Both the position numbers and the translations under genes were made by a program. Source: a virus. From it: a stretch of DNA of 51,805 bases. A model generated the notes under the pieces. That model made no database searches, was not told where the DNA came from, and was given only the letters and a program-made list of their open reading frames with translations. The stretch covers positions 1 through 51,805 of IMG/VR virus record IMGVR_UViG_3300022752_000104. One strand, given 5' to 3'. Shown here piece after piece: positions 3,279-28,400 of the stretch; position 1 is the stretch's first letter, and every line of letters begins with the position of its first letter.

Positions 3279-3513
3279 GCATCAAGTAGTACATTCTTTT
3301 AGATTAGGCGATGTAGAAGATCCCGAAATCTATGCCGGGCAGGGTCTATGGGAATTTGAACAAAGCGAAAAAGGTCAGTGGGTCATGGCCACTGCTGTAG
3401 AAACGCCGGTTTGGACTATAGCTATAGATCCGGCCTATTATGGCTATCAAGTTAAGATCGCTGCACGGCTATATGAAAAGGATCTTACTTACTTTCTACT
3501 TAAGTGGCGTTAA
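3178..3513 (+). CDS. Small conserved T4-like phage protein, start uncertain
   Basis: The conserved part begins around RQEAIRHQVVHSF and continues with DVEDPEIYA, a KGQWVM segment and YGYQVKIAARL. I recall proteins of this form in marine T4-like phages, of about 80-90 residues and unknown function. The longest reading starts at 3178, with other ATGs at 3196 and 3202. All three lie deep inside thyX, and none has a good ribosome site. The conserved core has no ATG, GTG or TTG just ahead of it. The true start may be a rare codon or one of the internal ATGs. The stop at 3511-3513 interlocks with the stop of the convergent - strand gene. Confidence 0.6.
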   Translation: MALNKNMSMWLEPVRQLSQESSPSPKNSRQEAIRHQVVHSFRLGDVEDPEIYAGQGLWEFEQSEKGQWVMATAVETPVWTIAIDPAYYGYQVKIAARLYEKDLTYFLLKWR

Positions 3514-5588
3514 GGGAATACTCTTATATTAGCAGTTCCAACAAACAGTCCGTTATACGTAGCACCAACTTTAGCGCCTAATTTAAACCATTCTTCGGGG
3601 TTCGCACTAGTGTAACCTGCATTTACAGTTATGGTAAACGTATGAGTATAACTGTTCGCCGATGGAGCTGTAAAGAATTGATTGCCAACTGTAATATCGT
3701 TAGCACTTATTGCTGCACCGGTTCCATCGGGTGGCATTATTTCCATCTTAAACGGAGTCCCCGCCCATGCTGAGCTAAGAACAGTAAAGCTCATTGTATG
3801 AGTATAACCAGGCACTAGGTTAATAGGTCCCGGATTAAAGTCCCCACGTATCTGGCTTGTATCGTTAAATAGGACATTTGCATTTGCTACAATAGGGCCA
3901 TCATGACCTTCTGTTCTAATTAGAATATTAGCTGTCTGCGGTCCTTCGAATCTACTATCATATATAACAGTTCCATTCACTGTATAGGTAGAACCTGTAG
4001 TAAGAAAATCTCCGGACCGTCTATAACTGGCGCCGCCTGCTCTATATGAAGCAGCTTCTGGTAAATTATATACTTGACTATCAACGTCGTTTAGTGTGGT
4101 AGCATTTGTTAATAAATCTGCAACATATCCATCTACTACACTGCTATTTTCCGGATGCCGACCCAGTTGTCGTAGATAAATTAAATTTATCCAACCTTCG
4201 TAATGTGAAGCTTGGATATTTGATGTTGGGTTCGATCCACTTAATGTTGTACTAACATACGTTCCGGGATTGGTAGTAAAATCTATTGCTTCAACACTGT
4301 TAAACCACCAATAAAGTCTAGTTCCGATTGGCACATTAGTTGTATTAACATTGAAAGAAAGAGGCTGACCTTCATCAATTGCGTATTGTGATGGTACAAC
4401 TTCAAATGTACTTAAAGTTCCCGGGCTAGAATCGCTAAAAAATAACCCAGAAATATCTGATGTTTTTGCTTTTGTGGGTGTGCTATACTGAAAGTTAAAA
4501 CTAGCAGGCCCTGTTACTTGAATGTAAGTCATCCTAATTGGATACTTAATGCCAGCAGTTAAAGGAATACTGTAAGAATTGGCCCCACCTAAGGTAACCA
4601 CTAGGTTGGCCGAAGCAGAATCATATATGTTAAAACTGGGATTTAGCGTATGGTCTCCGATCCAGAGGAAAAATACATCATCAACCCCGTCACAATAGAA
4701 AGTATAAGTTTCTGTGGTAGCCGCAAACAAGTTACCCACCCAGTGTTGTGTATATCTTCCTTGTGGTACGTCATACACAAAACCTTTTGGATCCGTTGCC
4801 GTTCTAACTCCTTCTAGTGTCGGTACAGCATCGATACTTTTTTCTATAAGCAAACTTGTAGTTGGCCCAATATTAGAAAATGTTGACCTAAATAGTCCCG
4901 GACTACCGGCCGGCAATGTTGATGTAGTGGTACTTGTTGATGTTGTTGATGTGGTTGAAGTTGATGTAGTGGTTGAAGTTGTTGATGTGGTTGTAGTTGT
5001 GAAAATTTGGACAAAACTACGATCAAAATAAAATCCGCATCCTTCTCTTCGATCAAAGGTAGTAACGCCATTTGCAGTGTTAGATTTAAACGATAGCACA
5101 ATAGGATCTACGTTTTTATAATATTGCTTACTAATTCTTTTGACAAGAGCATTTAGACCGACAGGCACAAGCCCAGCATGAACTACTGCTGCACCAAGAT
5201 TAGAATCTTCCGAATATGGAGTGTTCGAGCCCCCGCCAAACACATTGCCCGAAGTTGTCCCAGTTACTAAGACAATAGATCTATTGTCGTAACATTCAAA
5301 GGTCTGTGATGAGTCACTAACGGCTGTGCTTGCAATCGTTTTCTGTTGGTAAGCTAATTGTGACGCCGTCGGTATTATATCCCCAAGTTTAGGATTCGTA
5401 AAAGTATTAGGTAATGAAGTTTTACTAGGTAAATTTTCAACTGTTACTATTTGCGACGTTGCTAATATTTGCCCAGATGGGCCGCCTCGACGTAATTTTG
5501 CTATAAATTTACGGCCAACTTGTTCCGATACCGTTTCTTTAATCGGTATAAACGGTGCCTGTGTGGTGGTAGTTGTACTAGTTGTCAT
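3510..5588 (-). CDS. Modular tail-fibre/adhesin protein with LCCL-like and PA14/GLEYA-like domains
   Basis: A 692-residue secreted-type beta-rich virion protein and the last gene of the - strand late block. Visible order: a Thr-rich start (residues 2-10); an LRRGGPSGQILA module (about 30-50) shared with two upstream genes; an LCCL-like segment (about 105-190) with YSEDSNLGAAVVHAGL and a late NGVTTF; a Thr/Ser linker (about 195-225); a PA14/GLEYA-like domain (about 228-375) with HWVGNLF, TYTFYCDGVDD and WIGD; a Calx-beta-like stretch with IDEGQPLSF; a DUF4214-like segment (YLRQLGRHPE, about 465-520); and C-terminal Ig-like repeats. The likely role is binding a host surface glycan. Its ATG overlaps the preceding gene's TGA. 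The domain names are by-eye calls; the beta-rich structural nature is firm. Confidence 0.7.
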   Translation of the reverse strand: MTTSTTTTTQAPFIPIKETVSEQVGRKFIAKLRRGGPSGQILATSQIVTVENLPSKTSLPNTFTNPKLGDIIPTASQLAYQQKTIASTAVSDSSQTFECYDNRSIVLVTGTTSGNVFGGGSNTPYSEDSNLGAAVVHAGLVPVGLNALVKRISKQYYKNVDPIVLSFKSNTANGVTTFDRREGCGFYFDRSFVQIFTTTTTSTTSTTTSTSTTSTTSTSTTTSTLPAGSPGLFRSTFSNIGPTTSLLIEKSIDAVPTLEGVRTATDPKGFVYDVPQGRYTQHWVGNLFAATTETYTFYCDGVDDVFFLWIGDHTLNPSFNIYDSASANLVVTLGGANSYSIPLTAGIKYPIRMTYIQVTGPASFNFQYSTPTKAKTSDISGLFFSDSSPGTLSTFEVVPSQYAIDEGQPLSFNVNTTNVPIGTRLYWWFNSVEAIDFTTNPGTYVSTTLSGSNPTSNIQASHYEGWINLIYLRQLGRHPENSSVVDGYVADLLTNATTLNDVDSQVYNLPEAASYRAGGASYRRSGDFLTTGSTYTVNGTVIYDSRFEGPQTANILIRTEGHDGPIVANANVLFNDTSQIRGDFNPGPINLVPGYTHTMSFTVLSSAWAGTPFKMEIMPPDGTGAAISANDITVGNQFFTAPSANSYTHTFTITVNAGYTSANPEEWFKLGAKVGATYNGLFVGTANIRVFP
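4917..5001 (-). repeat. Thr/Ser linker repeat
   Basis: Near-repetitive DNA coding a Thr/Ser linker of about 28 residues between the LCCL-like and PA14-like domains of the fibre gene at 3510-5588. Units vary at third codon positions but keep the ACN/TCN pattern. Confidence 0.8.
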
Positions 5589-8410
5589 TGTGTAAACTGT
5601 GTTGGGGTTTCTCGTCTAGACTCAAACGTAGGAGTTGTTGAACTTATAATTTTATTATGCGATATAAATCCATTAGCTACGTAGGTGTGCGCTTGATCAA
5701 CTTCTAATCTAACTACGTAACCTACCCCCATTTTTGCTAGACTTGTTACTGTTGCCGATCCTTCAACTGTCTGTACTGAACTGCCCTGTCTTAGATCTCG
5801 AGCCGATGTCCAAATTTCTCCTGCTTGTAAGAATTTATGACTAAGACTCACTGTTATTGATTTTCCTGTATCAAACGTTACTCTTAATTTTGGCTCTTCG
5901 ACTAATTCTGCGTGAGTAATAGCATAATAACCATACTCTAATCTATGTTCGTGTACAGTATATATCAAATCTCCAACCGCTAATTCACCGGCAAGGCGCG
6001 ATTCTGTAGGCGATATCGATATAGGAGTTTGTGGATCCGGGCAACTTTCGGCCCCTCCACCAACTGTGACCGGAGTTTGCACAATAGTAAATGTAACTCT
6101 ACGTACATTACCTGTGGCTCTAAAGGTGAAATCTAAGTTCACAGTGCCTAAAAGACTAAATGGACCTATGATAGAAGTTGCACTACCATTTGTATCTAAA
6201 GTTACACTAGGATATCGAGTAGTGCCATCATAAACATCAACAATATCATTACGCACACCGCCGCTGATAAGAAATACAAGACTGTCATCTCGGTAATATG
6301 GGGGCTGGTCCGCATCAGCGATTTTAACTTGTTCATTAATACCTGAGCTTGCGTCTGTGATACTTATAACCGGTGAGACATAAAAACTATTAGTCCCTGC
6401 CCACATATCTGCGCTAGATGTGTAAAAAACCACAGTAAATGTTTCGGTAGTTTCGAATACTGCATCGGCTTTGGCCTTAACAAAAACTGATCTACCAACC
6501 GAACCAGCTACAGTTTGTATAGTCCCGTTAATGGGACCATCATAATCATCGACAGTATTGCCACCGCTACCTGAAATTTTCCAATACACCACTCTCGAAA
6601 TAGTATCTGTGATAGTAAACGATCCTGTAAATTCAGGACTAGTAATTTCATTTATTGTAGTACCGGGACTGCTTGTCCAATTAGTGATTGATGGTGGTGA
6701 CGCCGATACTTCGTCTAATTTAATCACATTACTAAAACTAGCAACCAAGAAATCTGGGTTAGTGTTAGCAAAAAACGTATTTGATCCAGGTTCATTTTGT
6801 ATCAACCAAGTGTAAACTTTTACTGATACAATCTTAGGATCATTTCTATTATCACTTTTAATTTTAATAGCAGCACTTCCACCTGGTGTATTAGTCCATG
6901 AATTTGCCGCATCTAAAACATAATTTAATCCAGTGGGATAATTAGCATTAACTGTTGGCGAAACTGCCAGAGACTTCACTGTACCTGTTGGTATATTAAA
7001 TTCTGTATCTACTATGACATCATCAGTGTCAACGTTAGATAAGTTTATTAAATATCTGCGCCCACTGCTACCAAGATCATACGGCGTAAATCGTCTATTA
7101 GGTGTGGTAAAGGCCACTAAAATATATGGAGGTTCCGGTGTTATTGACGAAGACCCTTCCTCAATCGAATACTGTGTAGCGTAAGGCTGTAACCCCTGCG
7201 GTAGCACAAATTTACCAACGCCAACTATATAGTCAATTTCTCGACTTCTCAAATTAAAATATTTTCTAGGTTCCGAATTCAATGTTTGTGGTATCAAGGT
7301 TCCGTAATTAACAGTAATTGGATTTAAACCATTACCGTCACACAAGTCAAAAATGTACCTAGGAACAGCGTTATCGGGTGAATAATTTATATAATCAGTT
7401 TGGGACCATGTTCGATTAATTTGGGCATTGGATTGAACTGGTAAGTTGATGGTTTTACTACCCCTAGACGCGACAAAAGCGTAGTACCATACATGTTCGG
7501 TTGCATTTAAACTTTGGTAAAAAGGAAATATAGATGAGCCTAGTGACCCGCCTTTTATCCAGCCTTCATATGATGAGGGTTTCGGACCATTTAACAAATT
7601 AATATTAAACCACTCATCTTTGGTAATTTGAGTTCTACTGGTAGGTTGTGCAAAATGCTGCATACGTAAGCTATAACTATTGCCTACTTTAAGATTTGTA
7701 AGGGTAACTGTTACTGTTTCGCCGGGCTTAATACTTGAATTACTATCTGTAGCAAATGTTGTAGAATCGCTTGTTATGGTAATAGTTTCAACTAATACGC
7801 CAATTTGTTGATTTAGTGTTACTATATTTCCTGCCCCATATGTCCAATTGACACTATTAGGGAATCTAGCTTCATAAGTCACTAGTGCAGGTTGCGTGTA
7901 GCTAACTGCCGCTCCTGTGTAAGTTCCACTTGCTGTTAAATTAGCATTACTAAACTTATTTAATTCACCTGTATCACTTATCCATGTATCAGCAAGATAA
8001 GTTAACCCAAAAAAACCATTTATACTAGCACGTTTTCTAAATTGTATCTGCACTACATTACCAGAATTCACAGCAGCAGTAGGTCCACCAGTAATTGTTG
8101 TTGAAGTAGGAACGTTGAGTGCCACTTGCGTAGGGCCCAACACTGGACTAAAAACAGGCAATGTACCCGGGGCCTGAGTTGTAGTAGATGTAGATGTAGT
8201 TGTAGTTGTTGGTAATGGATAAAGAGTTGTTTTTAAAAAATTTGCTACACGATTCGCTGTGGTAATTTTGCCTTGCAAACGGCCATCAGTAAAATTTGAC
8301 GGGAAAATATTACCTGTCACCGGACCAGCTAAAGTAATTACTTGTGAGTTAGCTACAATGTCTCCGGTAGGACTACCCTTTCTTAATCGTACAACAAATT
8401 GCTTAGACAT
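5585..8410 (-). CDS. Modular tail-fibre protein ending in a Hint (intein-like) domain
   Basis: A 941-residue protein. It opens with KQFVVRLRKGSPTGDIVANS (residues 3-22), the module also present in the two neighbouring fibre genes, followed by a Thr/Ser linker (about 66-78) and a long run of beta-rich Ig/Calx-like segments. Residues 790-919 form a Hint domain. Cys790 begins CPDPQTPIS, then comes LAVGDLIYT, a LSHKFL block corresponding to the intein block B histidine, and HTYVANGFISHN ending in His918-Asn919. The residue after Asn is Lys, not Cys, Ser or Thr, so full splicing is unlikely; side-chain cleavage or cross-linking as in bacterial intein-like domains is more plausible. It overlaps both neighbours (TAATG and ATGA). 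The function is probably host contact or fibre maturation. Confidence 0.75.
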   Translation of the reverse strand: MSKQFVVRLRKGSPTGDIVANSQVITLAGPVTGNIFPSNFTDGRLQGKITTANRVANFLKTTLYPLPTTTTTSTSTTTQAPGTLPVFSPVLGPTQVALNVPTSTTITGGPTAAVNSGNVVQIQFRKRASINGFFGLTYLADTWISDTGELNKFSNANLTASGTYTGAAVSYTQPALVTYEARFPNSVNWTYGAGNIVTLNQQIGVLVETITITSDSTTFATDSNSSIKPGETVTVTLTNLKVGNSYSLRMQHFAQPTSRTQITKDEWFNINLLNGPKPSSYEGWIKGGSLGSSIFPFYQSLNATEHVWYYAFVASRGSKTINLPVQSNAQINRTWSQTDYINYSPDNAVPRYIFDLCDGNGLNPITVNYGTLIPQTLNSEPRKYFNLRSREIDYIVGVGKFVLPQGLQPYATQYSIEEGSSSITPEPPYILVAFTTPNRRFTPYDLGSSGRRYLINLSNVDTDDVIVDTEFNIPTGTVKSLAVSPTVNANYPTGLNYVLDAANSWTNTPGGSAAIKIKSDNRNDPKIVSVKVYTWLIQNEPGSNTFFANTNPDFLVASFSNVIKLDEVSASPPSITNWTSSPGTTINEITSPEFTGSFTITDTISRVVYWKISGSGGNTVDDYDGPINGTIQTVAGSVGRSVFVKAKADAVFETTETFTVVFYTSSADMWAGTNSFYVSPVISITDASSGINEQVKIADADQPPYYRDDSLVFLISGGVRNDIVDVYDGTTRYPSVTLDTNGSATSIIGPFSLLGTVNLDFTFRATGNVRRVTFTIVQTPVTVGGGAESCPDPQTPISISPTESRLAGELAVGDLIYTVHEHRLEYGYYAITHAELVEEPKLRVTFDTGKSITVSLSHKFLQAGEIWTSARDLRQGSSVQTVEGSATVTSLAKMGVGYVVRLEVDQAHTYVANGFISHNKIISSTTPTFESRRETPTQFTQ
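8179..8214 (-). repeat. Thr/Ser linker repeat
   Basis: Short Thr/Ser tract after the first module of the Hint-domain fibre gene. Confidence 0.7.
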
Positions 8411-10935
8411 TATGTTATAGTGGGCATGTTACCAGCATTTATACTTGGGAATGTTCTGTTCCTCCCCCAAATAATTCTTACTGCTCCACCTCCACCAGGA
8501 TTTGCTTGCGTAGCTGGCCCACGTGCTCCGCCACCACCACCGCCATATGTACGACCTAATCCACCACTGCCAGCTGAACCGCTTGGATCCGCTGCTCCTC
8601 CAATCCCACCTGCACCATTTCCACCTTGACCTAAGATACCAACACCACCACCGTCACCTTTAACATTAAGTGATGTTGACATACTACCTCCACCACCACC
8701 CCCACCATTGCCGTTAGAGCCATTGGACTGATTACCGGTACCACCTTGACCTGCATAACCTGCTGCACCACCACCACCACCACTAGCAGCACCAAACCCG
8801 CCTAAGAAAGAAGCACCGGACCCAAGCCCGCCAAGACCAGCTCCCGACAATGATCCATAAGTACGATAACCGTTACTAGCATGTCCGCCGTATGCCAGTA
8901 CGTTGGCAGTATTCAATGTAGAAGTAAAGCCAAATAAAGATAGACCGCCTTCTCCGCCAACACTGACTGTAGCATTACCAGCAGTGCCACCTGCACCAAC
9001 TATAACTGTGTAGGCTTGTCCGGGTACAACTGGAATTTGATTGACATAGGTTAAACTACCGCCACCCCCCGATCCGCCAAATGCAGGGTCAAAACCGCCA
9101 CCGCCGCCTGCACCAACTGCCACCACATTCACCGAATAAACACCGGTTGGTGCTATCCAAGTATGTGTGCCGGGTGTGGTAAACTCCACCTGTCCTTGAT
9201 AGTTTTTATCAACTAAGCCTGAATCAACAAATGAGACTCTGCGCCCTGTTACTAGTGAATTTGCCCAGATTTCCATACGCACTATTCTAGGGTTATTCGG
9301 TATAGAAATTTCTTGTGTTTTGATTGTTATTTGGCCAACACCGCTGTTCATTACAACTTGACCAGATAATGGATAAGTTCCTGCCGTGCCGCCTTGGAAA
9401 TAATTTTCAGTATTTACAATTCCAGTCCATCCACTAAACAGTTGCAATCTCCAGAAAAACGTCCCGGTAAGTGCGCGAGTATCCCTCACAGTAAATGTAA
9501 CTTGATCGCCTTCAAAAATAATTCTTGTTGCGGGTGCGTATCCTCCCGGATTGTACCCAAGTGATGCTACTGTAGGTGCCGATTCGGCCAATACTGATAT
9601 TGGCGTAGTGACTTCTAATTCAATAGCTTTTAATCCGCCAGTACCTAATCCACTTACCACAGCACTGTAATATAAACTACTCGGCTGTTCAGAACTATCA
9701 GGTAAACGTACCGTTAGCCCTTCATACGAATAAGTAAAATCACCATTAGGAGCAATTGGGTTATAGTTAGTGCCGGTTGGATTGACATGTAAAGGACCCG
9801 GTAACCAAAGGTTATTATTTTGACCAAAACCAGTTACAGTTTCAATAAGAGCTCGATTACCAGGTTGTGCGCCAGTTACGCCAAATTTAAAGTTGTCAAA
9901 TATATTGACTTTGTATTTGAATACTTGACCGCCCTGTGCTTGCCCGATACCGTTAAATACACCAGGACTCACATACAAGGCTTCGTTACCATTGTAAGTG
10001 TAACTTTGCGTAGTTGTTGTGGTTGATGTGCTTGTTGTAGTCGTTTGTCCTGGAGCTAAGGTAAACTTAGTGAGAGTAAAGTTATCTAAATATAGATAAG
10101 CACCAACTTTCATTCCACCTGCGCTGTCATATGATCCATGTACAACAACAACACGATATTGCCCAGCTAATGCTCCATTCGTTAAAGTATAATTTACTGT
10201 TTGCCACCCAGAGTTAGTTCCATATGTGTCTAACAAAACAATAGAACCGCAGGTTTGAGTATTTAATAGGTAAATCATAACCGCGTAGGTATCGCCTTGC
10301 GGATCTTTGGCAGCACGCCAGTTAAAGGTTATTTGGTCGCCGGTAGTGAATGCAAAAGAATTATCACTAATCATAATGGGACCGCGCATGATCCCAAAAG
10401 CATTAGGATTGGTTTGACTTACTACACCAGCGAACACGCCAGAATTCTTTAACTCGACAATATACTTTCCGGTGCCACCGGGTACAGCTAAACTAGAATA
10501 TAAAGGATTAGAGGTGTCAAGTATACGTACACTGTAACTAGGGTTGTTAGTTAAATTTGTACTGAAGGTTACGTTATCGCCGGGACTGCTGAAACCAGCT
10601 GGTGGAGCCGGCGTAGGACTAACTGTTAATCCCGGTGTGAAGCAATTTAATATCTGAGCATTTCCAGCTAAACGTGTAACTTGCTTAAGTACCTTCCAGC
10701 CTAATAGATTATATCTAAAATTATCCTCAGTGATACCGGTTACAATTTCAAAATCACCATTAATAATTTGCCCGGCATCGTAAGCAGCGCCATAAAAATT
10801 GCTTAGTGCTAGCCTTCCGTAGACTGGTATATTGGTCCTTACACCATAGGGATAACCTACTGTGCCTAAAGGGATTATCCCTGCACCGGCATAGTAAGAA
10901 CTTAATCTAGTTGATCCTGAGCAATTATTTGGCAT
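8410..10935 (-). CDS. Tail fibre with jelly-roll module and C-terminal Gly-rich adhesin domain
   Basis: An 841-residue protein. The N-terminus (residues 1-50, ending LALSNFYGA) resembles the attachment end of other phage fibre proteins. Residues 55-295 form a jelly-roll-like module (NGDFE, FGIMRGP, TGDQITFNW, GAYLYLDN) that recurs in the gene at 18604-21777. A short Thr/Ser linker (about 297-309) and Calx/Ig-like segments follow. Residues about 590-841 are very rich in Gly, with runs such as GGGGGAAGYAGQGG, and end in GGGGAVRIIWG, a pattern typical of Gly-rich phage adhesins that fold as bundles of polyglycine-II helices. The C-terminal tip is the likely receptor-binding surface. An ATAAATA element lies just upstream. 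Confidence 0.75.
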   Translation of the reverse strand: MPNNCSGSTRLSSYYAGAGIIPLGTVGYPYGVRTNIPVYGRLALSNFYGAAYDAGQIINGDFEIVTGITEDNFRYNLLGWKVLKQVTRLAGNAQILNCFTPGLTVSPTPAPPAGFSSPGDNVTFSTNLTNNPSYSVRILDTSNPLYSSLAVPGGTGKYIVELKNSGVFAGVVSQTNPNAFGIMRGPIMISDNSFAFTTGDQITFNWRAAKDPQGDTYAVMIYLLNTQTCGSIVLLDTYGTNSGWQTVNYTLTNGALAGQYRVVVVHGSYDSAGGMKVGAYLYLDNFTLTKFTLAPGQTTTTSTSTTTTTQSYTYNGNEALYVSPGVFNGIGQAQGGQVFKYKVNIFDNFKFGVTGAQPGNRALIETVTGFGQNNNLWLPGPLHVNPTGTNYNPIAPNGDFTYSYEGLTVRLPDSSEQPSSLYYSAVVSGLGTGGLKAIELEVTTPISVLAESAPTVASLGYNPGGYAPATRIIFEGDQVTFTVRDTRALTGTFFWRLQLFSGWTGIVNTENYFQGGTAGTYPLSGQVVMNSGVGQITIKTQEISIPNNPRIVRMEIWANSLVTGRRVSFVDSGLVDKNYQGQVEFTTPGTHTWIAPTGVYSVNVVAVGAGGGGGFDPAFGGSGGGGSLTYVNQIPVVPGQAYTVIVGAGGTAGNATVSVGGEGGLSLFGFTSTLNTANVLAYGGHASNGYRTYGSLSGAGLGGLGSGASFLGGFGAASGGGGGAAGYAGQGGTGNQSNGSNGNGGGGGGGSMSTSLNVKGDGGGVGILGQGGNGAGGIGGAADPSGSAGSGGLGRTYGGGGGGARGPATQANPGGGGAVRIIWGRNRTFPSINAGNMPTIT
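10009..10047 (-). repeat. Thr/Ser linker repeat
   Basis: Short Thr/Ser tract directly after the jelly-roll module in the Gly-rich fibre gene. Confidence 0.7.
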
Positions 10936-10941
10936 ATCTTA

Positions 10942-10949
10942 TATTTATT
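10942..10949 (-). promoter_or_regulatory. Late-promoter-like ATAAATA element before the Gly-rich fibre gene
   Basis: On the - strand this reads AATAAATA and lies about 7 bases before the ATG at 10935, in a 28-base gap. It resembles the T4 late promoter TATAAATA. With so short a distance, transcription from it would start at or inside the gene, so it may instead serve a downstream start, or be chance in AT-rich DNA. It is included because the same element recurs in the other gaps. Confidence 0.35.
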
Positions 10950-10963
10950 CACTAAAAATTATG

Positions 10964-13996: not shown

Positions 13997-14021
13997 AATT
14001 GTGTATTATACCAATTATAGT

Positions 14022-17801: not shown

Positions 17802-17825
17802 TAGATTCTAAGCTCCATATTATTA

Positions 17826-17833
17826 TATTTATT
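17826..17833 (-). promoter_or_regulatory. Late-promoter-like ATAAATA element before the S74 fibre gene
   Basis: It reads AATAAATA on the - strand, about 25 bases before the ATG at 17801, right after the stop of the preceding gene. GGAG lies between the element and the ATG. The arrangement (element, short leader, ribosome site, ATG) is the best formed of the fibre-region copies. Confidence 0.5.
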
Positions 17834-18445
17834 TTAGGATAATCCGGTTAGATTTGTTAAACTTTGAATTCGTATGGTGTAATCAATTTGAATTAACCTG
17901 TTTAAACTCTTTTGTATAGGATGGAATACTACGTGGGTAAGCAATTTACCTTTACCAGGTCCACTTGGATTCCAGGACTTAAGCCCAATTTCATCAAAAA
18001 TAAATGTAGAGTCAACTGTACTTAAATTATCAAATGCAGTTTGACCACTCGGTTCACCATAATCCAGCAAACACGTACACAAGATATCAGTGTACACAGT
18101 ACCAGGAACGTGCCTAACGGTCATACTATTACGAACTGGATCAGTATTATCTGCATCAGTGTCATCTATAATTTTGAAGAAACTAGGATTATATAAATCG
18201 GCATTCTGAGTGTTAGTGTTAGTTGGCAAATAATTAATAACACCAGTGGTGTCAAAGCTAGTACCGCCACGACCGAAATGCATTTCGGTTATAAAATTGG
18301 TTTTCTTATTAGCTAAACTGTAAGCAAGGGCTTCGCTTATATTTTCAAAATGGATGGCGTTATTTTTGTCTAAAAACACTTCACTGTTTTCTGGATCAAA
18401 AATACGTACATGTCCTACTATATTAAGTACAGAATCTGTTTTCAT
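17834..18445 (-). CDS. Conserved marine T4-like virion structural protein
   Basis: A 203-residue protein starting MKTDSVLNIVGHVRIFDPENSEV. The N-terminal strand-turn motif 'G.(V/L)(R/K)I.DP..(G/S)E' is followed by a segment with NAIHFENISEALAYSLANK, then a Gly-rich FGRGGTSFD loop and a C-terminal beta-rich half. I recall this family as widespread among cyanophage and pelagiphage structural genes without an assigned function. Its ATG overlaps the TAA of the 50-codon gene upstream (TAATG), so the two are translationally coupled. The position among fibre genes suggests a small connector or baseplate-associated protein, which is inference. Confidence 0.7.
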   Translation of the reverse strand: MKTDSVLNIVGHVRIFDPENSEVFLDKNNAIHFENISEALAYSLANKKTNFITEMHFGRGGTSFDTTGVINYLPTNTNTQNADLYNPSFFKIIDDTDADNTDPVRNSMTVRHVPGTVYTDILCTCLLDYGEPSGQTAFDNLSTVDSTFIFDEIGLKSWNPSGPGKGKLLTHVVFHPIQKSLNRLIQIDYTIRIQSLTNLTGLS

Positions 18446-18597
18446 TATGCTCGGCCCTGCGTATAAATTTCTCCGGTTTCAGGATCTGATATTTTTAAAA
18501 AACCTTGAAACATGATACCAGAATGATCATCTGGTTTCTTTTCTTCGGATTTCTTGTCTGAATCTTGTGGTTCAATCGGTTGTTCTGTATTTATCAT
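18445..18597 (-). CDS. 50-residue small protein related to the N-terminus of its downstream neighbour
   Basis: This small gene encodes 50 residues. The first half is charged and probably disordered (Glu, Lys, Asp, Pro). The second half contains GFLKISDPETGEIY, which closely matches GHVRIFDPENSEVF near the start of the 203-residue protein it overlaps. The overlap is a TAATG, strongly suggesting co-translation. The shared motif and adjacency suggest a truncated paralogue, or two proteins pairing through the same small fold. I recall similar mini-proteins beside this family in other marine T4-like phages. The start is the only ATG in frame; a promoter-like ATAAATA overlaps it. Confidence 0.65.
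   Translation of the reverse strand: MINTEQPIEPQDSDKKSEEKKPDDHSGIMFQGFLKISDPETGEIYTQGRA
18588..18595 (-). promoter_or_regulatory. ATAAATA element overlapping the start of the 50-residue gene
   Basis: It reads GATAAATA on the - strand and coincides with the first codons of the small gene (ATG ATA AAT A). If it is a promoter, transcripts would begin inside this gene and serve the 203-residue gene about 140 bases downstream. It could equally be coding sequence by chance. Confidence 0.25.
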
Positions 18598-18603
18598 AGT
18601 AAT

Positions 18604-21600
18604 TTATGGTAATGAAAGTTGTATTGCACACCAGTTAGTAGACCATACTGTTGTAGTTATTCCATTAGCTGTGGTGCTTGTGAATCCCCCATTTTGTACC
18701 CCTAACACTGTAAACTTAATGGTACCCGTTTGACCAACTGTGAGTAGTCCGGCATGTACTGCGGCCACCCTCCAGTCGCTGTCATCAGTATATGGGTTAC
18801 TACCCCATACACTACTACCAGATGCCGCACCAGTAATTGTTCTAGTAATAACTTCATTAGCTATACAACTAGGTGATATAACATTACTTGGCGCAGCTGG
18901 ATCTATTGTACAAATAGGTGACCTAGCTAACACTGTTCCATTTAAATCGCTGCTTGTAATCAGTACTTGGAAATTCTCTGCTGCACCAGATACTTCCCCA
19001 GTTGGAATATTAATAACTCCTGAGGTGGCCGATGTTGGCAAATTATTAGGCGTTCCTCGATGACCTGCACTAATACCAGAGCCCGAAAAAGCTGTATTAG
19101 TGCCCGGATCAACAATAAACCATCCTTGAGTCGTGCCTACCGCTCCGGCTGGTGCGTTCCAAGTAAATGCAAATGTACTACCTCCAGATTTATTTGTTGG
19201 AGGTGTCACAGTAATGGACCATGGCGGCGGTGCTGCACTAATCTTATCTATGTTATCTAAATAAAGACTAGCGCCTAATGCAGTACCACCTGAAGCATCT
19301 TGACTACCACAAATAAACACAAATCTATATGTGCCAGTTTCGTTTGACTGTATTTCCTTCTCAACACGTATCCATGGTGTAAATGTATTGCCAAAACTAT
19401 ATGAACTAGAGTCCAATAACTCTATTGTTCTTCCGTTTGATGTATCTAACAAGTAAGCATAAACATCATAGTCATCTCCACCAGCTTCGGCCTTCCAATG
19501 GAAGAATACTTTATCCCCAGTGTTACAAACAATGGGATTATCGGCTACAAGATATGGGCCACGGACTATACCAAATGGTACGCTGGTCCCGCTACTAATT
19601 AATCTTATCACATTAGCGCCACCAAAATTACCTGCGCTATCTGGAACCACACTAAACGAATAACTCATACTAACTGGTGCATCTTGATCACCGTATGGGG
19701 CAGGCGTTGATGCATAACTTGGCGTAGGATCATTGGGTGTTGGCCACCCTAATATAGTACTAAAGCCATTCAATCGTAAATGATTTGGTGTAGTTCCTAC
19801 ACCTGGTTTATATATACTCCAACCAGGGATATGGTCAACTCCGTTGCCGTCGGTAGTTCGAGGGCTAAAAATTTCAAAGTCGCCATTAAAGAAGTTAACT
19901 AACGCAGCCCCAGGCGGAGGTGTAGCTACAGGACTAAGAGTGGTAGTTGTTGTAGTAGTGGCTTTACTTTCATCGCCGACTGTTACAGTAGAAGTTCTTA
20001 ATGGTGCTGGTGCTGGAATAGCATTGGGGTTAGACAAGTAAATGCCTAAAATAATTGTTTCCGACCCTTCTTCAACAGCACCAGGGTCAACACTGGTGTT
20101 AGGGGTGTAATCTTCACTTAGCGTGAAACTTATGCTTGCAACACCGGCTCTATATCCACCACTTACAGTTAGAGTATTTGTGCCTGGGTAATTATCAAAA
20201 TCTCCACTTGTGGTCGTTCCTACGTTTTTCCAGTAAATAACGTTACCGGGCCTAATTCCATCTGTATTAATATTGAAGGTTACTGTTTGCCCTTCATTAA
20301 TTGTTGCGCTACTTGGAGTAATAACCACTGTAGGAGCTACGCTTGTATCAGCTATGTTTAATGTAATGGGCCCTGCTACAAGACTATTAGCGTCGAAAGT
20401 AGCTGTAGCATGAACATTGGCAAAAATTATTTCTGCACCTTCAGTAAGGTAATCTTCTACTAGTGTAATAGTAACATTTGCACAGGCACCAAACGTAGTA
20501 CCTGTAGTTGTCATTGTACCCCAGGTCAATGGCAGATTGTAATCAACATTAGAACTAGTTCCTGTTAAATTATAAAAAAAGGTAGTATTGGCTTGTATGC
20601 CAGTAGTGTACAAATCTAAACGGACAGTTTCACCTTCATTGACCATGAGAATTTGTCCAATACCAGCACTCGACAGATAACTTGTAATTGTGGCAGTAAG
20701 TCCATAGCTAGGATCAGGCGTGTCTGTAATATACACTACGTTCGCGGTTTTCAGAATAGTTCCAGATGCAGAACCAGAACGCAAATTCAATACAATAGAC
20801 TTGGTTGCAGTGGCACCAGGACTACGAACAGTGTCTAATTTAATTAACCCAAAACCAGACGCATACCCGCCACCCATAACTACACTACCTGAACTAGTTT
20901 GAACAGCAAAGTCAGAAGGCTGGCTAGTTCCTGAATTAGTCCAATATAGAGTAGTACCAGCAGCAATACCTCTTGTAGTTACGTCATATATAATGCTTGA
21001 ACCTTCACCTATACTAGTAACCCTAGGTACAATGTAATATTCAGGAACAACACTTATATCATTAATGGTAACGGTTTCTGCTGTAGCAACAATTGGTCCA
21101 GATACGGACCCAGTGCGTACATTAAAAATTATTGTTTCAGAGCCTTCGGTGCTAACATCCATTGCAGGTGTAAGGTTAACACTGGCAGTCCCATTATTAT
21201 AATCACCTGTTACTTGGAAACTACCATTATTTGTATATCCCAATCCAGCGCCAACAAAATCAATTAATTGGCTAGTTCCGTCGTTAGTCCAATACAAAGT
21301 AGTACCAGGCACTAGATTTATTGTATTAATTTGAAAACGAATAGTATTGCCTTCGTCCACTGCCGTGGCTGCTGGAAAAGCTGCGTATTGTGGTCCTGGT
21401 GCATATTGTCCAGTGTTACTATAGCGCAATGGACCGACATCTTCTACATCTGATCCAACAAGATGTACGTCAGGAACCCCGGTACCACCAACCCCTCTAC
21501 GAATACGCCCTAAGCGATTATTTTCTTTTTCATAGTAAATAATACGCTCGCCATTCACATGGATAATACCAGGTAGCGGTACCGATGGATCTGGAGTTCC

Positions 21601-21777
21601 TAGCACGTTTCCATCTGTTACAAATACATTTGTATTGGCTAGGTACAGTGGTTGCGACAACTTTACTACATAGGTGTTATTAAAGGTTGAACGAAATCTC
21701 TGTTCGTTCATATCAACAAATACTCTAAAACCACTAGCAAACTGTTCGTCACCGTAACTGATGTTGGTTAATTGCAT
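18604..21777 (-). CDS. Long structural/adhesin protein with four Calx-beta-like repeats and an LCCL-like C-terminus
   Basis: A 1057-residue protein. Residues 1-115 form a conserved virion domain (with VTDGNVLG, GIIHVNGERIIYY and a GRIRRGVGGTG loop) that I recall from marine T4-like structural proteins. Four tandem Calx-beta-like repeats follow (about 135-600), each with '(D/N/G)EG..(I/V)' and a 'LYW.N.GTS...DF' strand. Then come a short Thr linker (about 605-614), a jelly-roll-like module (about 625-840, with NGDFE, FGIVRGP and GASLYLDN) also found in the gene at 8410-10935, an Ig-like segment, and an LCCL-like domain (about 980-1057, with VWGSNPYTDDS, AAVHAGLL and NGITT). This would form a long rod with a binding tip. 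Confidence 0.72.
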   Translation of the reverse strand: MQLTNISYGDEQFASGFRVFVDMNEQRFRSTFNNTYVVKLSQPLYLANTNVFVTDGNVLGTPDPSVPLPGIIHVNGERIIYYEKENNRLGRIRRGVGGTGVPDVHLVGSDVEDVGPLRYSNTGQYAPGPQYAAFPAATAVDEGNTIRFQINTINLVPGTTLYWTNDGTSQLIDFVGAGLGYTNNGSFQVTGDYNNGTASVNLTPAMDVSTEGSETIIFNVRTGSVSGPIVATAETVTINDISVVPEYYIVPRVTSIGEGSSIIYDVTTRGIAAGTTLYWTNSGTSQPSDFAVQTSSGSVVMGGGYASGFGLIKLDTVRSPGATATKSIVLNLRSGSASGTILKTANVVYITDTPDPSYGLTATITSYLSSAGIGQILMVNEGETVRLDLYTTGIQANTTFFYNLTGTSSNVDYNLPLTWGTMTTTGTTFGACANVTITLVEDYLTEGAEIIFANVHATATFDANSLVAGPITLNIADTSVAPTVVITPSSATINEGQTVTFNINTDGIRPGNVIYWKNVGTTTSGDFDNYPGTNTLTVSGGYRAGVASISFTLSEDYTPNTSVDPGAVEEGSETIILGIYLSNPNAIPAPAPLRTSTVTVGDESKATTTTTTTLSPVATPPPGAALVNFFNGDFEIFSPRTTDGNGVDHIPGWSIYKPGVGTTPNHLRLNGFSTILGWPTPNDPTPSYASTPAPYGDQDAPVSMSYSFSVVPDSAGNFGGANVIRLISSGTSVPFGIVRGPYLVADNPIVCNTGDKVFFHWKAEAGGDDYDVYAYLLDTSNGRTIELLDSSSYSFGNTFTPWIRVEKEIQSNETGTYRFVFICGSQDASGGTALGASLYLDNIDKISAAPPPWSITVTPPTNKSGGSTFAFTWNAPAGAVGTTQGWFIVDPGTNTAFSGSGISAGHRGTPNNLPTSATSGVINIPTGEVSGAAENFQVLITSSDLNGTVLARSPICTIDPAAPSNVISPSCIANEVITRTITGAASGSSVWGSNPYTDDSDWRVAAVHAGLLTVGQTGTIKFTVLGVQNGGFTSTTANGITTTVWSTNWCAIQLSLP

Positions 21778-21784
21778 AATTTAA

Positions 21785-21792
21785 TATTTATT
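21785..21792 (-). promoter_or_regulatory. Late-promoter-like ATAAATA element before the Calx-beta gene
   Basis: It reads AATAAATA on the - strand in the 23-base gap, about 8 bases before the ATG at 21777. The very short distance makes an ordinary leader impossible, so its function is doubtful. It is listed because it fits the recurring pattern of gap elements. Confidence 0.35.
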
Positions 21793-21800
21793 GATCGATT

Positions 21801-24800
21801 TTATGTACCTATGTTGTCGCTGGTTTCATTTACACCAAAACTACTTATATAATTTAGTAGAGTTCTTGGCGCACCGGGTATGTCTGCGACTGCTAGCGAT
21901 TGGTAGCCTGAATCTAAATGAGCCGTTGGGGTACCACTGGTTGGCGTAAACAAACTAGTGTGCGAAGTGAAAGCAATTTTATCTATTGGTAGTGTATCGT
22001 AATAGGTTTGTTTACCTAGACCACCATTATTAATTCCTCCAGCCTTGAACCAGTAGCCGTTTCTATTATTAAATGCACCGCCATCATTACCTAATGTCAA
22101 TATATATAATATATGCCAGTTACCAGCCGTATATCCCCATATTCCACCATGCGTAGCACCAACACCACCTTGGCCTCCACTAGCAGTAGTTTCCCCGCCA
22201 AAGTTCGATGAAGTTGAGCTACTGCCAAGATAGTCGCCGTTATTATCCGCACCAAAATTAAACACTGTCCAATCGTCAGCATCTTCACTACCATCACCTT
22301 GAATTATTTTTACCCTACCTAATTTAAAATAATTTCCTGTACCATTATCTACTTTATCATATAACGGAAGAGAGGCAAAACCAACATTCCAGGGGTCGGC
22401 AGCTAAAGTAGTTGTAGTAGTGGTTGAACTAGTGGAAGTAGATGTAGAAGTTGTAGAAGTTGTAGAAGTTGTAGAAGTTGTTACTGTGGCAACAGCTATA
22501 GACAGAGCATGACTAGGAAGATTTGGATTTCCAACAGCATCATCAAATTTACTGTCATCTATATACAATTTGATAGATCCGTTTGTATTAGCAGTTGGTG
22601 TTACTTGAACTTTATACAAATTATCGCGAACAGATCTAAAATTGCTTAAAACTCCATCACCGGTGACTGTTATATCACTTAGATTAAAATTAGACGTAAC
22701 GTTTGATGTAATAATCATAACATTGGTTGTTTCGCCATACGTCAGGTACTCGTCATCACTGAACATTGATACCCAAGGTCTTCTAGTGTCATAGTATAAT
22801 GTTAAGTCATTACTACTGGTGTTTGGATTACCGTTAGCACTGGTGTACGCTGCGGCTTGAACATTAGCGACAATATTACCGGTGAGTCCTTGAACATTGC
22901 CCCGGGCCCAACCTTCGGTGCCTGTCTTAATTATTTGTTCGTAAGCTGGAACTTTAAAATCACTTGAAACTAAGACTCGAGCATGGGTGACATACATGGC
23001 CTCATCACTTTGAGCTTGGTCTGCACCAAAATACATATACAAATTAGCAGTAGAAGCAGTGTGACTTATCCAACCTGTATCTACTATAAAATAACCATCC
23101 CTGGTGTCCCCAGAAAAAGGACTATAACTATAGGTGTTATCTTCTACCCACTGAAATACCGAACATAAGTTAGTTGTTATTTCTGCGGGATTATTTAAAT
23201 AACTATATTTCACGAATCTAAGATATTCTATGCCATCAATGGTCAATGTATGCTCTTCGCCGTCTATACTGTCAACAAAATGCCAATAAAATTTATAACG
23301 TAGTTTTGTGTGTGCAGGTATGCTGGGAACTTCAAGTTTAAATCCGGTTTGCGGTGAATATCCATGCCCGGTTCCTGTACCTAATGCCCCGTATGTCATT
23401 GTGTATGTTGTACTGGGTGTCCAATAAGATAATGTAGCAGTTGGATCTAAGACTTCATCAACTAATACTGTAGATGTATGTTTATATCCAATAAACACAT
23501 GACTATATCTTAAAGAAGACCAAGTATCAGTTCTAACTCCACCAAAGTTATCATTTAGTATATTTCTTAACCCAACATTACAACTAGTTGCATCAAAACT
23601 TGTCATAACCAATAAATTACCAGTTGGTATAGCAGTAAGATAATTCATTAGATCACCAACTTCGGTGATACTGCCATAAGTGTCTTTGGTAACAGTGCCG
23701 TCTAGATCAAACACATTTGTATTTGATTCCACGTCAAAATAGGCCACAATATGGCCTCGACCAATAGTTCCGATTGAGGTACCATTTAACTTGATGTAAC
23801 TGACAAATTCCCCGGAAGGTTGATTATAATTACTGGCCTGCACTTCGATTTTACCTTCGGGCGGAGTGTAGGTAGCTGTATATACCGTATTGCTACCAGA
23901 AAAATTATCTATGGTACCAAAACCAAATTTAGATATATCTGCCAATACAAAGTTAGTTGTTGCTAAATTACTTGTAAATGTCAAAGTTGAAGTTTCATTA
24001 TATTTTAAGAATAAATCAGTGGCACTTATTGTCATTGTAGGAAAACGTGTATCTACTGCTATAGTCAGTAAATTACTGTCACGGTTCCTATTGCCAATAG
24101 TGTTGGTAAACTTACCAGCTGCAACATTAACCGATAAAGTCCCCAAAGAATTAACATTCCCTGTTATGTTTGCGTTATAAACTGTAGAACTCACTGCAAC
24201 AAAATTGGAAATAAAACCCGGACCTGAGCAAGAAATGTCTACATTAGAAAAATTCGATGTAGCATTACTTGTGGTAAATGTTAGCATAGCGACATCACCA
24301 GATTTTAGAGCATTGTCATCAGTTGTAATTGCAATTTCTGGTCGTATAGTGTTTAGTGTAAAAGTTAGTGTATTAGAACTTGAGTTCCATACTCCGCTAC
24401 CGCTAGCAGTTTTAAAACTACTACTCGGTAAAAATACACTAAATGATCCTGTTATATCGACATTAGGTTCTAGCATCATTGTAGCTGTTGTACCATAATA
24501 ACTAAATGATGTAAGATTACCTCGACCCCCGGCTATAAAATCGCTCAAAGTAAATTGCACTGGATCAGCTGGCTCACTTAGTAAAGCAGTTATAATAGGT
24601 CTTTGATGAGCTAATATTGTACCTGACAAATTGCTACTTAAAGTCACAGTTAATGGTGCCGGCGAATCTGTAGTTGTAGTTGACGTGGTTGATGTAGTAG
24701 ACGTTGTTGTCGTAGACGTTGGTATAGGGGGTATGGTGGTTGTAGTATTAATAATAACTGGACCCGGAATCGCACCACCTATATGATAATGACTGAACGC

Positions 24801-25454
24801 TACATTTTGAGACTGACCAACTAAGTTAGCACTGAAAACAAACCTTTGTGTACCTGGAAAAGAGTTGGCCTTACTAGCATCTAACCGCAATATCAAACCA
24901 TTAGATATAAATTGACCAATTGGTTGATATAGTTCAATACTAACATGACTTAGATACATAGCTTCGTCACTTTGCCCTTGGTCATGTCCTAGAATATGAG
25001 TAGCAGTAAATGTCGAACTCATATGATTTATGAAACCAGTATCAAATTCCACATACCCATTGGCAGTACTATTACTTCCCCACGGCGCATAACTGTAAGT
25101 TGCTGGTACCCAAGTAGCAGAGGAAAATCTATTATACGTGAATAAAGGTGCTCCGGGTGTGCCTGCACCTGGGAATCCGGTCTTAGTAAACTGAGCATAA
25201 ACCTGCCCATCTAAACTTAAGCTACTTTGTTCGTTATCTAAGCTATCCACAAAATGCCAAAACACTCTATAACGCAATCTGGAATGACTGGGTAAATTAT
25301 TTAGGGTTAAGGTATAAGTTCCAGAATTAGGGCCATGGCATGTCACTGTACCTAACCCTGTTATACTAGACATAGTATAGGTGTTGGAATTAGACCAATT
25401 AACCAAATTAGTATTGGCTAATGCACCCTCGTCGTAATAACTTATTGTCGGCAT
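21801..25454 (-). CDS. Modular adhesin with Ig-like repeats, a FAM3/ILEI-like domain and a duplicated lectin-like domain
   Basis: A 1217-residue protein. Residues about 20-185 and 665-845 are two copies of one domain, each with HFVDS(L/I)D.E, a GY..(F/V)DTG..(N/S)H stretch and a (G/A)(H/D)(D)QxQSDEAMY end. Between them are a Thr/Ser linker (about 238-262), three Ig-like repeats of the 'Big' type (for example LKSGDVAMLTFTTSN) and, at about 555-660, a FAM3/ILEI-like domain (RGHIVAYFDVES, KDTYGS, LMNYLTAIPTGNLLVM and HVFIGYK). A fourth Ig-like repeat, a second Thr/Ser linker (about 989-1016) and an unrecognised C-terminal domain follow. In known proteins the ILEI fold binds sugars in at least one member, so glycan recognition is a reasonable inference. 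The start lies 3 bases after the giant gene's stop. Confidence 0.7.
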   Translation of the reverse strand: MPTISYYDEGALANTNLVNWSNSNTYTMSSITGLGTVTCHGPNSGTYTLTLNNLPSHSRLRYRVFWHFVDSLDNEQSSLSLDGQVYAQFTKTGFPGAGTPGAPLFTYNRFSSATWVPATYSYAPWGSNSTANGYVEFDTGFINHMSSTFTATHILGHDQGQSDEAMYLSHVSIELYQPIGQFISNGLILRLDASKANSFPGTQRFVFSANLVGQSQNVAFSHYHIGGAIPGPVIINTTTTIPPIPTSTTTTSTTSTTSTTTTDSPAPLTVTLSSNLSGTILAHQRPIITALLSEPADPVQFTLSDFIAGGRGNLTSFSYYGTTATMMLEPNVDITGSFSVFLPSSSFKTASGSGVWNSSSNTLTFTLNTIRPEIAITTDDNALKSGDVAMLTFTTSNATSNFSNVDISCSGPGFISNFVAVSSTVYNANITGNVNSLGTLSVNVAAGKFTNTIGNRNRDSNLLTIAVDTRFPTMTISATDLFLKYNETSTLTFTSNLATTNFVLADISKFGFGTIDNFSGSNTVYTATYTPPEGKIEVQASNYNQPSGEFVSYIKLNGTSIGTIGRGHIVAYFDVESNTNVFDLDGTVTKDTYGSITEVGDLMNYLTAIPTGNLLVMTSFDATSCNVGLRNILNDNFGGVRTDTWSSLRYSHVFIGYKHTSTVLVDEVLDPTATLSYWTPSTTYTMTYGALGTGTGHGYSPQTGFKLEVPSIPAHTKLRYKFYWHFVDSIDGEEHTLTIDGIEYLRFVKYSYLNNPAEITTNLCSVFQWVEDNTYSYSPFSGDTRDGYFIVDTGWISHTASTANLYMYFGADQAQSDEAMYVTHARVLVSSDFKVPAYEQIIKTGTEGWARGNVQGLTGNIVANVQAAAYTSANGNPNTSSNDLTLYYDTRRPWVSMFSDDEYLTYGETTNVMIITSNVTSNFNLSDITVTGDGVLSNFRSVRDNLYKVQVTPTANTNGSIKLYIDDSKFDDAVGNPNLPSHALSIAVATVTTSTTSTTSTTSTSTSTSSTTTTTTLAADPWNVGFASLPLYDKVDNGTGNYFKLGRVKIIQGDGSEDADDWTVFNFGADNNGDYLGSSSTSSNFGGETTASGGQGGVGATHGGIWGYTAGNWHILYILTLGNDGGAFNNRNGYWFKAGGINNGGLGKQTYYDTLPIDKIAFTSHTSLFTPTSGTPTAHLDSGYQSLAVADIPGAPRTLLNYISSFGVNETSDNIGT
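22406..22488 (-). repeat. Thr/Ser linker repeat with a perfect 9-base tandem core
   Basis: Codes about 27 Thr/Ser residues before the C-terminal domain of the gene at 21801-25454. Positions 22444-22479 are four exact copies of GTAGAAGTT (+ strand), the most perfect tandem repeat in the window. Gain or loss of a unit would keep the frame. Confidence 0.9.
24667..24742 (-). repeat. Thr/Ser linker repeat
   Basis: About 25 Thr/Ser/Pro residues after the first lectin-like domain of the gene at 21801-25454. Confidence 0.7.
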
Positions 25455-25457
25455 CGA

Positions 25458-28400
25458 TTAATCCATTGTGTTTGATGAAGCAGAATCGCTGTTAGTAACT
25501 CCGGCACAATTATCTGGTCTTGTATTACCACCAGTTGCATATATAATTTCTGTGCCTGCGCTATTACAGAAACTACTCCAACCACCACGCCAAGGAGCTT
25601 GATCTACTCCGTATGGAGGACCGCCTGCTGCGGAGCGAGTAGTCGATTGCAGTCCACCTTGTCCACCTGCACCTACTTTAATTATATATTGTGTTCCTGC
25701 TGTAACCGTGTAATTAGTTAACAAGCCAGCCCCGCCACCACCACCGCCGGCGTTAACACAAGGCCCAGTAGCTCCGCCGCCACCGCCAGCAATGATACCT
25801 ACACTAATCTGAGTGACACCCACCGGTACTGTAAAGTTTCCTATAAGAGCACCATCATAAACATTGGATGAACTGCGCTTAGTTGAACTAGCACTATTAT
25901 CCCATTCTATAGCTTGACCACCATTAATTAATCTTGTAGCTCCAAACGTTGTTAGATCACTGTTAGTAAACACATAGCTACCACCTGTTATTGTAATTCT
26001 AACTAGACCGCCTGTGCCATCGCCACCATCAATTGGTGCTGTGGTGGCATTAGCACTGTCGGTTTCTACACCACCGCCACCATTACCTACCCCAGTTGCG
26101 TTAATCGTAGATGAATTGTATCCAGAAAGACCCCCTGTGCCTGCTGAACCTGCTGTGGTATATCCGCCACCTGAACCGCCTGTTCCGTAAGAACCGTCAG
26201 TGCCGACCAAGCTGCTCCAAGATCCACCGCTACCACCTAATGGGCTAGCACTACCACCACCGGCATTACCTAAGTGCCCGCCTGAAGCTGAATATCCACC
26301 TCTATATCCTGTAAATAAACCAGGAGAAGCTAATGGCCCAAACCCATTACCGCCCCAGGCTGCATTAGTTGCAGGGATACCAGGAGGAACTGGTGGCTGC
26401 GGTGGTAAAGTAGTTGTAGTTGTTGTAGTTGATGTTGAAGTAGTCGTACTTGTAGTTGACGTAGTTGTTGCTGGAGGACCATAACGACTGCGTGTAGCAA
26501 AATACATATCAACAACTTCATCGTCGGTCAACGAACGATTGTAAACATAGACTTCACCAATATCGCCATCAAATTCATATCTATCCGGGGTAGCACTAGG
26601 ATTAGTAAAGTTAGCAAAAGTTATGCCAATACCTGCTGTGCCAGATGTTGCTGAGCCGGTTACTTGAACTAAAGTACGCTTACCACCGTTAATATATAAC
26701 TTGTTGTTGTTTACATACGTACTACCACCAATTGTGTTATGGAATACAGCTACCACAAACATCCAAGAATTTTGATACATGGACATCTCTGATGCAGGTA
26801 CACCGTACAAATCACCAGCACTATTGTTAAAGCCTAAAGATCCAGATGGCATCCATAATCTGTAACCAGTTTTCCACTCCATTGGGAACCCGTTAGTTTC
26901 AGCACGCCAACGCATCCACATACAAACAGTATTGTACTCGCCTGGTGTTGTGTTAATACCGTTCATTGATGTAATAGATGTTGCGCGATCATTTACTGCA
27001 TTATTAAGACCAAAACTGAAAATACCTTGTTGCTGTATCGACCAAACAGGACTATTATCTAATAACTGGAAGTGGTTTTGATATGAGCTTAAATCGTACC
27101 AAGTGCGACCTGACAACATATTATTATTAGTAGTAAATCTTACCACACGTTGCTCACCAGGCAACATTGTAAATGCGCTTGGTGTAACATTAGCTGTGCC
27201 TCCACCAGGTGCTTCCACAAGACTAATAGTAACTGGATATGGTACAGGATTGCCGGAACCGGTTAAACTGAGTGTAAATGAATCTGAAGTGCTTAAATTC
27301 GATTCTGTGTAAGGTACCTCAATTGAACTGGAACTGGCACCTAATATACTCAAAGTAAGCGGACTTGGACCAGATGTTGTAGTCGTTGTTGTGCCTATTG
27401 CAGCATTAGATTGTGATAAGACACGAATACTTAAGCTATCATATATAATACCGGGCAATAATTCTTCAGGCGCACGTGAGAAGATTCTGTCAACAAATTT
27501 ACCACCTGCTACTCGAATATTACCAGCACTTATACCTGCGTTACTACCAAAAGTGTCACCTATTAAGATAGTATCTTGCCCGGTACTACTGCCCACAGTA
27601 AATGGGTTAAACGGGTCTATACCCGGAACTAGTCTACCTAAGTCTTTGGGTATATTACCATTATCTGTACTAGGAGCATAATAAGCAATAATACGATCGT
27701 TAGCATTGTCAAATTCATCACTTGTAACTAAACGTAAAAGACCTGGTGTGAATACCGAAGAATTATAAGCACTATCAACAACTTGATAGGCCCGATTATT
27801 ATAACTTAGATAAGTACCAATTGGATAGTTTACATTAGGTTGCCAATCTTGCACCTTACTTGTGTATTGTATTCTATCAAACTTGATGGTGGTCTTTATA
27901 CGACGTACTTTATTATTAGTTAATCTAGCCGATAATACAGCAGACCCAACGTCTTTAGATGTGTCTAATGAACTTGTAACAATTTTCTGACTACGCCAGG
28001 CCTTACCATCAAAAATATAGACTCTTTCACCATAAGTGATGCTTTGCCCGGTCTGCGGTGATGTTGGTACTGTAAGTGGTGTAGAGAATACATAGTTTTT
28101 AGGATCAGCTCTTAACGCTGCCAGGTACCCGCGTTCAATCTTAAAGGTCACGCTTGCATAGGCATCGGGCGCATTATCAAATGAACCTGCATAGTGTTCA
28201 ATACCACGACCAACACCTGATCCCGGGATACCAACCAAAATATAACCACTTCTAAACTTAAATGTAGTTTCTGCGGCAGCGGGCTTACCGAAAACTTCTT
28301 CACTTGCACCACAACGTTGTAGAGCAAGATGTAGATCATTTGTTAGACGATTTCTGTAAGCGTCATCATAGGTATGAACTACAACTACATAATCATCACT

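Follow-up and report, generated by a model that had tools for sequence, protein, structure and literature searches.

Exchangeable tips and Thr/Ser linkers in adhesin-like genes beside the baseplate genes of an uncultured jumbo myophage

The distal tail fibre and gp38 adhesin of T-even phages are shuffled (Tetart, Desplats and Krisch 1998, doi 10.1006/jmbi.1998.2047, cited in PMC6363177 and PMC3797505); as the citing papers present that work, it concerns one small adhesin in which recombination at conserved-motif joints swaps the parts that set specificity and the rest is kept. In the modular receptor-binding proteins of Klebsiella phages an N-terminal anchor carries an exchangeable C-terminal specificity module, and these modules, which are depolymerases, are spread by horizontal transfer (PMC8262889). 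Mosaicism among tail fibre, tail spike and baseplate proteins, with fragments common to non-homologous proteins, was described by Smug et al. 2023 (PMC10684548), a paper that is agnostic on mechanism and in which the word linker is absent.

The cluster described here lies in IMG/VR record IMGVR_UViG_3300022752_000104, a linear genome fragment of 51,805 nt that was analysed as a whole (the window). Like gp38 as portrayed in the citing papers, it appears to exchange putative specificity parts at conserved joints, probably by recombination, and to keep the remainder, and it shares with the Klebsiella phage proteins (PMC8262889) the combination of an N-terminal anchor with an exchangeable C-terminal module. 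In contrast to gp38, its joints are low-complexity Thr/Ser stretches that occur in a giant structural protein as well as in several other genes, with no DNA identity across linkers, and its tips, unlike the Klebsiella depolymerases, are lectin-like or unknown domains among which no depolymerase was recognised. The proteins belong to the functional class treated by Smug et al. (PMC10684548), but their seams have been mapped to linkers. The general kind of system is already known (Tetart et al. 1998 as cited; PMC10684548); compared with those sources as far as they are represented here, the Thr/Ser seam in several genes is what differs.

Phage and baseplate context

The cluster belongs to a jumbo myophage known solely through metagenome DNA. 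Judged by hub and anchor proteins, the isolates nearest to it are Sinorhizobium phage Phosso and Agrobacterium phage Atu_ph07, followed by phages of the 121Q/RaK2 types, and its baseplate genes are related to those of Atu_ph07/Phosso/RaK2-type jumbo phages; a megablast of the window against INPHARED phages gave zero matches. The minus strand, on which all features below lie unless stated otherwise, encodes T4-like baseplate proteins (gp53-, gp5-, gp25- and gp6-like, some named by eye from the sequence). The baseplate order of Atu_ph07 and Phosso was found here as well: the gp25-like and gp6-like wedge genes, a giant structural protein and a phrog_11259 gene, with the gp5-like hub nearby. The giant protein (25458-39908, 4816 aa, phrog_10938 virion structural protein) adjoins the baseplate genes; the phrog_11259 gene (17834-18445) is the cluster's best-conserved anchor gene, and next to it a tail protein bearing an S74 (endosialidase-type) chaperone (16641-17801) is a conserved framework gene.

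Phosso and Atu_ph07, too, have the phrog_11259 anchor gene after the giant protein, either immediately or with two small genes in between, and beyond it come one more gene of ~610-630 aa and then unrelated genes; an adhesin cluster of the window's kind is absent downstream of the anchor gene in these two phages. Because just one ~610-630 aa gene occupies that place in them, we regard the cluster as a feature of the window's clade. The adhesin-like proteins probably sit on or near the baseplate.

Several further observations concern this neighbourhood. A ThyX-like thymidylate synthase gene (2604-3278, plus strand, named by eye from the sequence) lies beside the cluster, and in RaK2, too, the anchor gene has a thymidylate synthase in its vicinity. 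The gp6-like wedge protein (39920-44332) has a DUF4214-like module in common with gene 10964, a module located in the giant protein in the relative G004, and the wedge gene of another relative, G006, contains long T/S/A/P tandem linkers.

Architecture of the adhesin-like genes

Seven genes (3510-25454; named by their lower coordinate) and the C-terminus of the giant protein encode module-linker-module, adhesin-like proteins, which confirms the architecture that the earlier note had described for at least six neighbouring genes and the giant C-terminus. Linkers, defined as runs of at least 10 aa with ~80% or more Thr/Ser, were found in genes 3510, 5585, 8410, 10964, 14022 and 21801 and in the giant protein (aa 4173-4182 and 4479-4502), with a short one in gene 18604; as had been claimed, they flank recognisable modules.

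Gene 3510 (3510-5588) starts in a linker and continues with an LCCL-like domain (aa 98-188), a second linker (4911-5006, aa 195-226), a GLEYA/PA14 domain (aa ~276-384) and Calx-beta-like modules, while gene 5585 (5585-8410) has a short Calx-like N-terminus, a linker (8171-8215) and a C-terminal Hint/intein-like domain. In gene 8410 (8410-10935) a module (aa 59-290) that recurs in gene 18604 is followed by a linker (9997-10050) and a terminal Gly_rich_2 domain. Gene 10964 (10964-13996), also starting in a linker, contains a DUF4214-like module, Calx-like fragments and two ~100-aa modules that sit exactly between linkers at aa 387-475 (12572-12838), 577-634 (12095-12268) and 730-772 (11681-11809), the last of them ahead of the terminal LamG_3 domain. 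Gene 14022 (14022-16628) combines a conserved N-terminal part (aa 1-172, including a linker at 16458-16520, aa 37-57), a short T linker (16092-16112, aa 173-179), a Calx-like module and a central Gly-rich module. Four Calx-beta-like repeats, a short T linker (19930-19968), the shared 215-aa module and an LCCL domain form gene 18604 (18604-21777). Gene 21801 (21801-25454) is built of module A1, a conserved linker (24660-24725, aa 244-265), Big_12-like repeats, an ILEI module, a duplicated A1, a second linker (22401-22490, aa 989-1018) and a lineage-specific tip. The giant protein carries GDSL lipase, CBM5/12, ILEI and LamG-like domains and a Gly-rich tip behind its last linker (26403-26474, aa 4479-4502); CBM5/12, a GDSL lipase/acylhydrolase and an ILEI-like domain were noticed in its interior (aa 1852-2436 and 3791-3896).

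Genes 10964 and 3510 begin (at 13996 and 5588) directly within a Thr/Ser linker, and therefore gene borders, too, coincide with linkers; in-frame stops are present immediately upstream of gene 10964. Pieces of an N-terminal motif, SLxxxQxEFG...YYAGG...FYGA, are divided over the N-termini of genes 14022 (16628) and 8410 (10935), and the same motif is undivided in gene 23976 of G006 and gene 108638 of G011.

The order of modules varies between genes, as had been noted: the Gly-rich module, present in gene 8410, gene 14022 and the giant tip, is terminal in the first (aa 580-834 of 841) and central in the second (aa 293-483 of 868). Calx-beta-like repeats recur in genes 18604 (four), 14022 and 3510, LCCL in genes 18604 and 3510, an unnamed ~215-230-aa module in genes 8410 and 18604, and GLEYA in gene 3510 and in the G012 counterpart of gene 14022. 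Modules common to several window genes have ~30-60% amino acid identity, with no near-identical DNA. On sequence grounds this sharing is old, and recent copying between window genes was rejected, as no near-identical DNA was found within the genome. The GLEYA module gave no match among phage isolates, nor did gene 21801 in bacterial genomes; an IMG/VR scan with the tip of gene 21801 found nothing, and one with its pre-linker module returned G012 again and nothing further. AlphaFold models of two tips (mean pLDDT 49 and 30) were too poor for use.

The Hint domain of gene 5585 (5651-5995, aa 806-920) starts with Cys and ends in His-Asn, and the C-terminus of the protein matches the intein_Cterm model, with weak matches to phage TerL and UvsX genes. 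Because the residue at +1 is Lys, not Cys, Ser or Thr, we classify it as a Hint domain and reject a splicing intein; it probably self-cleaves instead. This domain was not found in the relatives examined.

Tip replacement and exchange tracts among relatives

As the earlier note had proposed, the locus was aligned with relatives, namely four IMG/VR records: G012 (3300023179_000258), G020 (3300023179_000409), and G002 and G013 (metagenome 3300010354). Their giant-protein frameworks show 55-60% amino acid identity to that of the window, and the framework tree is ((G012,G013)99,G020)100, with the window and G002 outside that group; the comparison thus rests on five lineages, with only a small number of tip events that are independent. 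A further contig, G001, represents the same phage as the window and ends within the giant protein at aa 4358; it stems from the metagenome that also yielded G012 and G020.

Module identity differs among these phages. Conserved N-terminal parts are followed by C-terminal parts that vary, and replacements by unrelated modules occur at linkers at three sites, the giant tip, the tip of gene 21801 and the second linker of gene 14022. The giant frameworks align as far as the linker at aa 4479-4502, beyond which the window, G013 and G020 have a common Gly-rich tip (72-76% aa), an unrelated module plus Gly-rich stands in its place in G012, and G002 has no tip, its protein ending at '..RDRYSL', immediately before the linker site. 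Because G012 groups with G013 and G020, the most plausible reading is that the replacement in G012 happened independently of the absence in G002. In gene 21801 the linker-masked homology among the window, G012, G002 and G013 stops beside the linker in 6/6 pairs (at aa 988|989, 982|983, 812|813 and 808|809, respectively), and four unrelated tips follow this one linker. In gene 14022 a GLEYA module between two linkers in G012 (aa 173-186 and 355-372) takes the place of the Calx-like module of the window, with its seam at the short T linker; the Gly-rich module after this site is common to both. As in gp38-type swapping, replaced segments have their junctions at the joints, but this was observed for tip replacements only.

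A second type of change was observed in gene 21801, where the window and G012 have exchanged segments as a mosaic although the phages are otherwise divergent. Only one long DNA match of at least 80% connects them (blastn; window 22408-23926, 86.4% over 1526 bp), and it resolves into a tract at 23590-23840 (~95-98% nt; aa ~540-624, the ILEI module) and another at 22487-23144 (86-100% nt; window aa ~771-988) that ends at the linker, within which identity fades across ~35 nt. Between the tracts (23145-23588) identity is ~72% and upstream of them ~56%; identity at fourfold sites is 0.90-0.93 within the tracts vs 0.28-0.33 outside. The tract ends near aa 540, 625 and 775 lie where there are no linkers, and most breakpoints of recent exchange tracts fall outside linkers.

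Could the mosaic be an assembly artefact of mixed phage populations? The common source metagenome of G001, G012 and G020 speaks for this, as does an exact 127-nt match between window 23911-24037, at the start of Big_12 repeat 3, and the contig end of G020 (L217, 13535-13661), which might be an exchange tract or an assembly-graph junction. A length of 127 is a common assembler k-mer. Because the match has exactly this length and lies at a contig end, we take it as suggestive only, and it is likely an assembly-graph junction between two related phages. The window/G012 tracts, on the other hand, are interior to both contigs and carry 2-5% scattered differences, and since their longest exact runs (120 and 116 nt) lie away from the tract borders a k-mer chimera is unlikely as their source. 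The differences among giant-protein tips, moreover, recur in contigs of two metagenomes. An artefact as the explanation of the mosaic as a whole is accordingly very improbable.

The linkers and the mode of diversification

The earlier note had proposed that diversity is driven by recombination between the linkers of different genes through their repetitive DNA. Recombination is indeed visible and tips do change at linkers; the linker-to-linker step did not hold up. Repetitive DNA exists within single linkers, where tandem units differ between relatives (a 9-bp unit in the window, a 30-bp unit in G012), but not between genes. The mean longest common substring of cross-gene linkers is 11.4, vs 11.0 ± 0.3 after synonymous-codon shuffling, and the maximum is 17 nt, vs 18.5 ± 2.1; linkers as true DNA repeats were therefore rejected. 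Each linker has short in-frame microhomology with the rest, the runs of different genes sharing at most ~10-17 nt. The joints of T-even gp38 are conserved glycine-rich motifs; homologously recombining joints of that type were not found here, 17 nt being the longest shared run in the window. As regards a diversity-generating retroelement, which has a reverse transcriptase and a template/variable repeat pair, DNA repeats of at least 60 bp at 80% identity were absent from the window, a genome fragment, among whose genes no reverse transcriptase was noticed. Linkers with homologous flanks in gene 21801 (aa 244-265), gene 14022 (aa 37-57, the same place in G012) and gene 18604 (aa 604-616) have never moved. 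While the seams of non-homologous tip changes, the variable tandem units and the microhomology would suit recombination driven by the linkers, the cross-gene similarity at shuffle level, the fixed linkers, the recent tract ends lying mostly outside linkers and the lack of any genome with near-identical modules in two of its genes make it distinctly unlikely.

At the other extreme, the linkers could be mere flexible spacers (providing reach, protease resistance or possibly glycosylation), with shuffling occurring anywhere and seams simply marking domain ends. Their conservation in place agrees with this, as do exchange tracts beginning near module borders that have no linker, the ~155-aa A1 insertion (a duplication) of gene 21801 in the window and G012, which lacks Thr/Ser linkers at its borders, and the Gly-rich junction of gene 14022 at aa 293, without a linker in the window. 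Yet wherever one module has clearly given way to an unrelated one, at least one of the two partners has a linker at that point, and the non-linker borders of genes 18604 (collinear between the window and G012) and 21801 are mostly collinear, so that we consider a pure spacer role rather unlikely. Approximately 3/10 distinct breakpoint sites fall at linkers, vs 6.2% of residues within 5 aa of a linker, an enrichment (P ~0.02 by rough arithmetic) that exceeds chance for random positions but becomes much weaker if only domain borders are possible sites, and is not decisive against that null. Any such Thr/Ser run was present in 7/91 loci compared, which is why we do not ascribe the distribution to chance; several runs occur only in the window, G012, G002 and G006, and G013 and G020, added after that comparison, have Thr/Ser runs as well.

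The reading that we favour, with moderate confidence, is that of modular adhesins whose frameworks are patched by homologous recombination and whose tips are replaced at linkers acting as tolerant seams, not as recombinogenic repeats. Conserved frameworks would end in flexible Thr/Ser linkers bearing exchangeable C-terminal tips. Recombination between related phages, probably homologous and presumably during co-infection, patches framework modules, as is seen in the mosaic of gene 21801. The alignments also show directly that linkers are the seams at which one tip gives way to an unrelated one or a tip is gained or lost, and rare in-frame joining within linkers may be the molecular step. Since the Thr/Ser runs are presumably disordered, joins inside them would be tolerated, leaving both adjacent folds intact, and selection on receptor or glycan binding would retain the products.

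The benefit may be a change of host receptor, a host-range role suggested by domain types and gene position. The folds of LamG, GLEYA/PA14, CBM5/12 and Ig-like domains bind glycans or surfaces in a generic way, and such generic binders would equally suit modular adhesins that fix the phage to decoys, particles or the matrix of biofilms, with the host being selected by other fibres. RaK2, a distant relative, recognises its primary host through a separate fibre cluster (PMC10253068). However, rapid tip turnover beside baseplate genes is typical of receptor-binding proteins, and this fragment is without another fibre cluster; a role apart from host range thus seems unlikely to us.

We put forward, as a speculation of low probability, that the Thr/Ser linkers are an evolved general-purpose joint which this jumbo-phage clade has placed in many baseplate-associated and adhesin genes and at which microhomology joining trades tips; if so, repertoires would be built across genes and phages without a dedicated enzyme. 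In these uncultured jumbo phages the locus offers a natural system for comparison, which displays both homologous patching of adhesin modules and, at a defined protein seam, wholesale tip replacement. If the linkers are permissive joints, they would account for the ability of very large phages to build and renew several glycan-binding tips with neither a retroelement nor an invertase.
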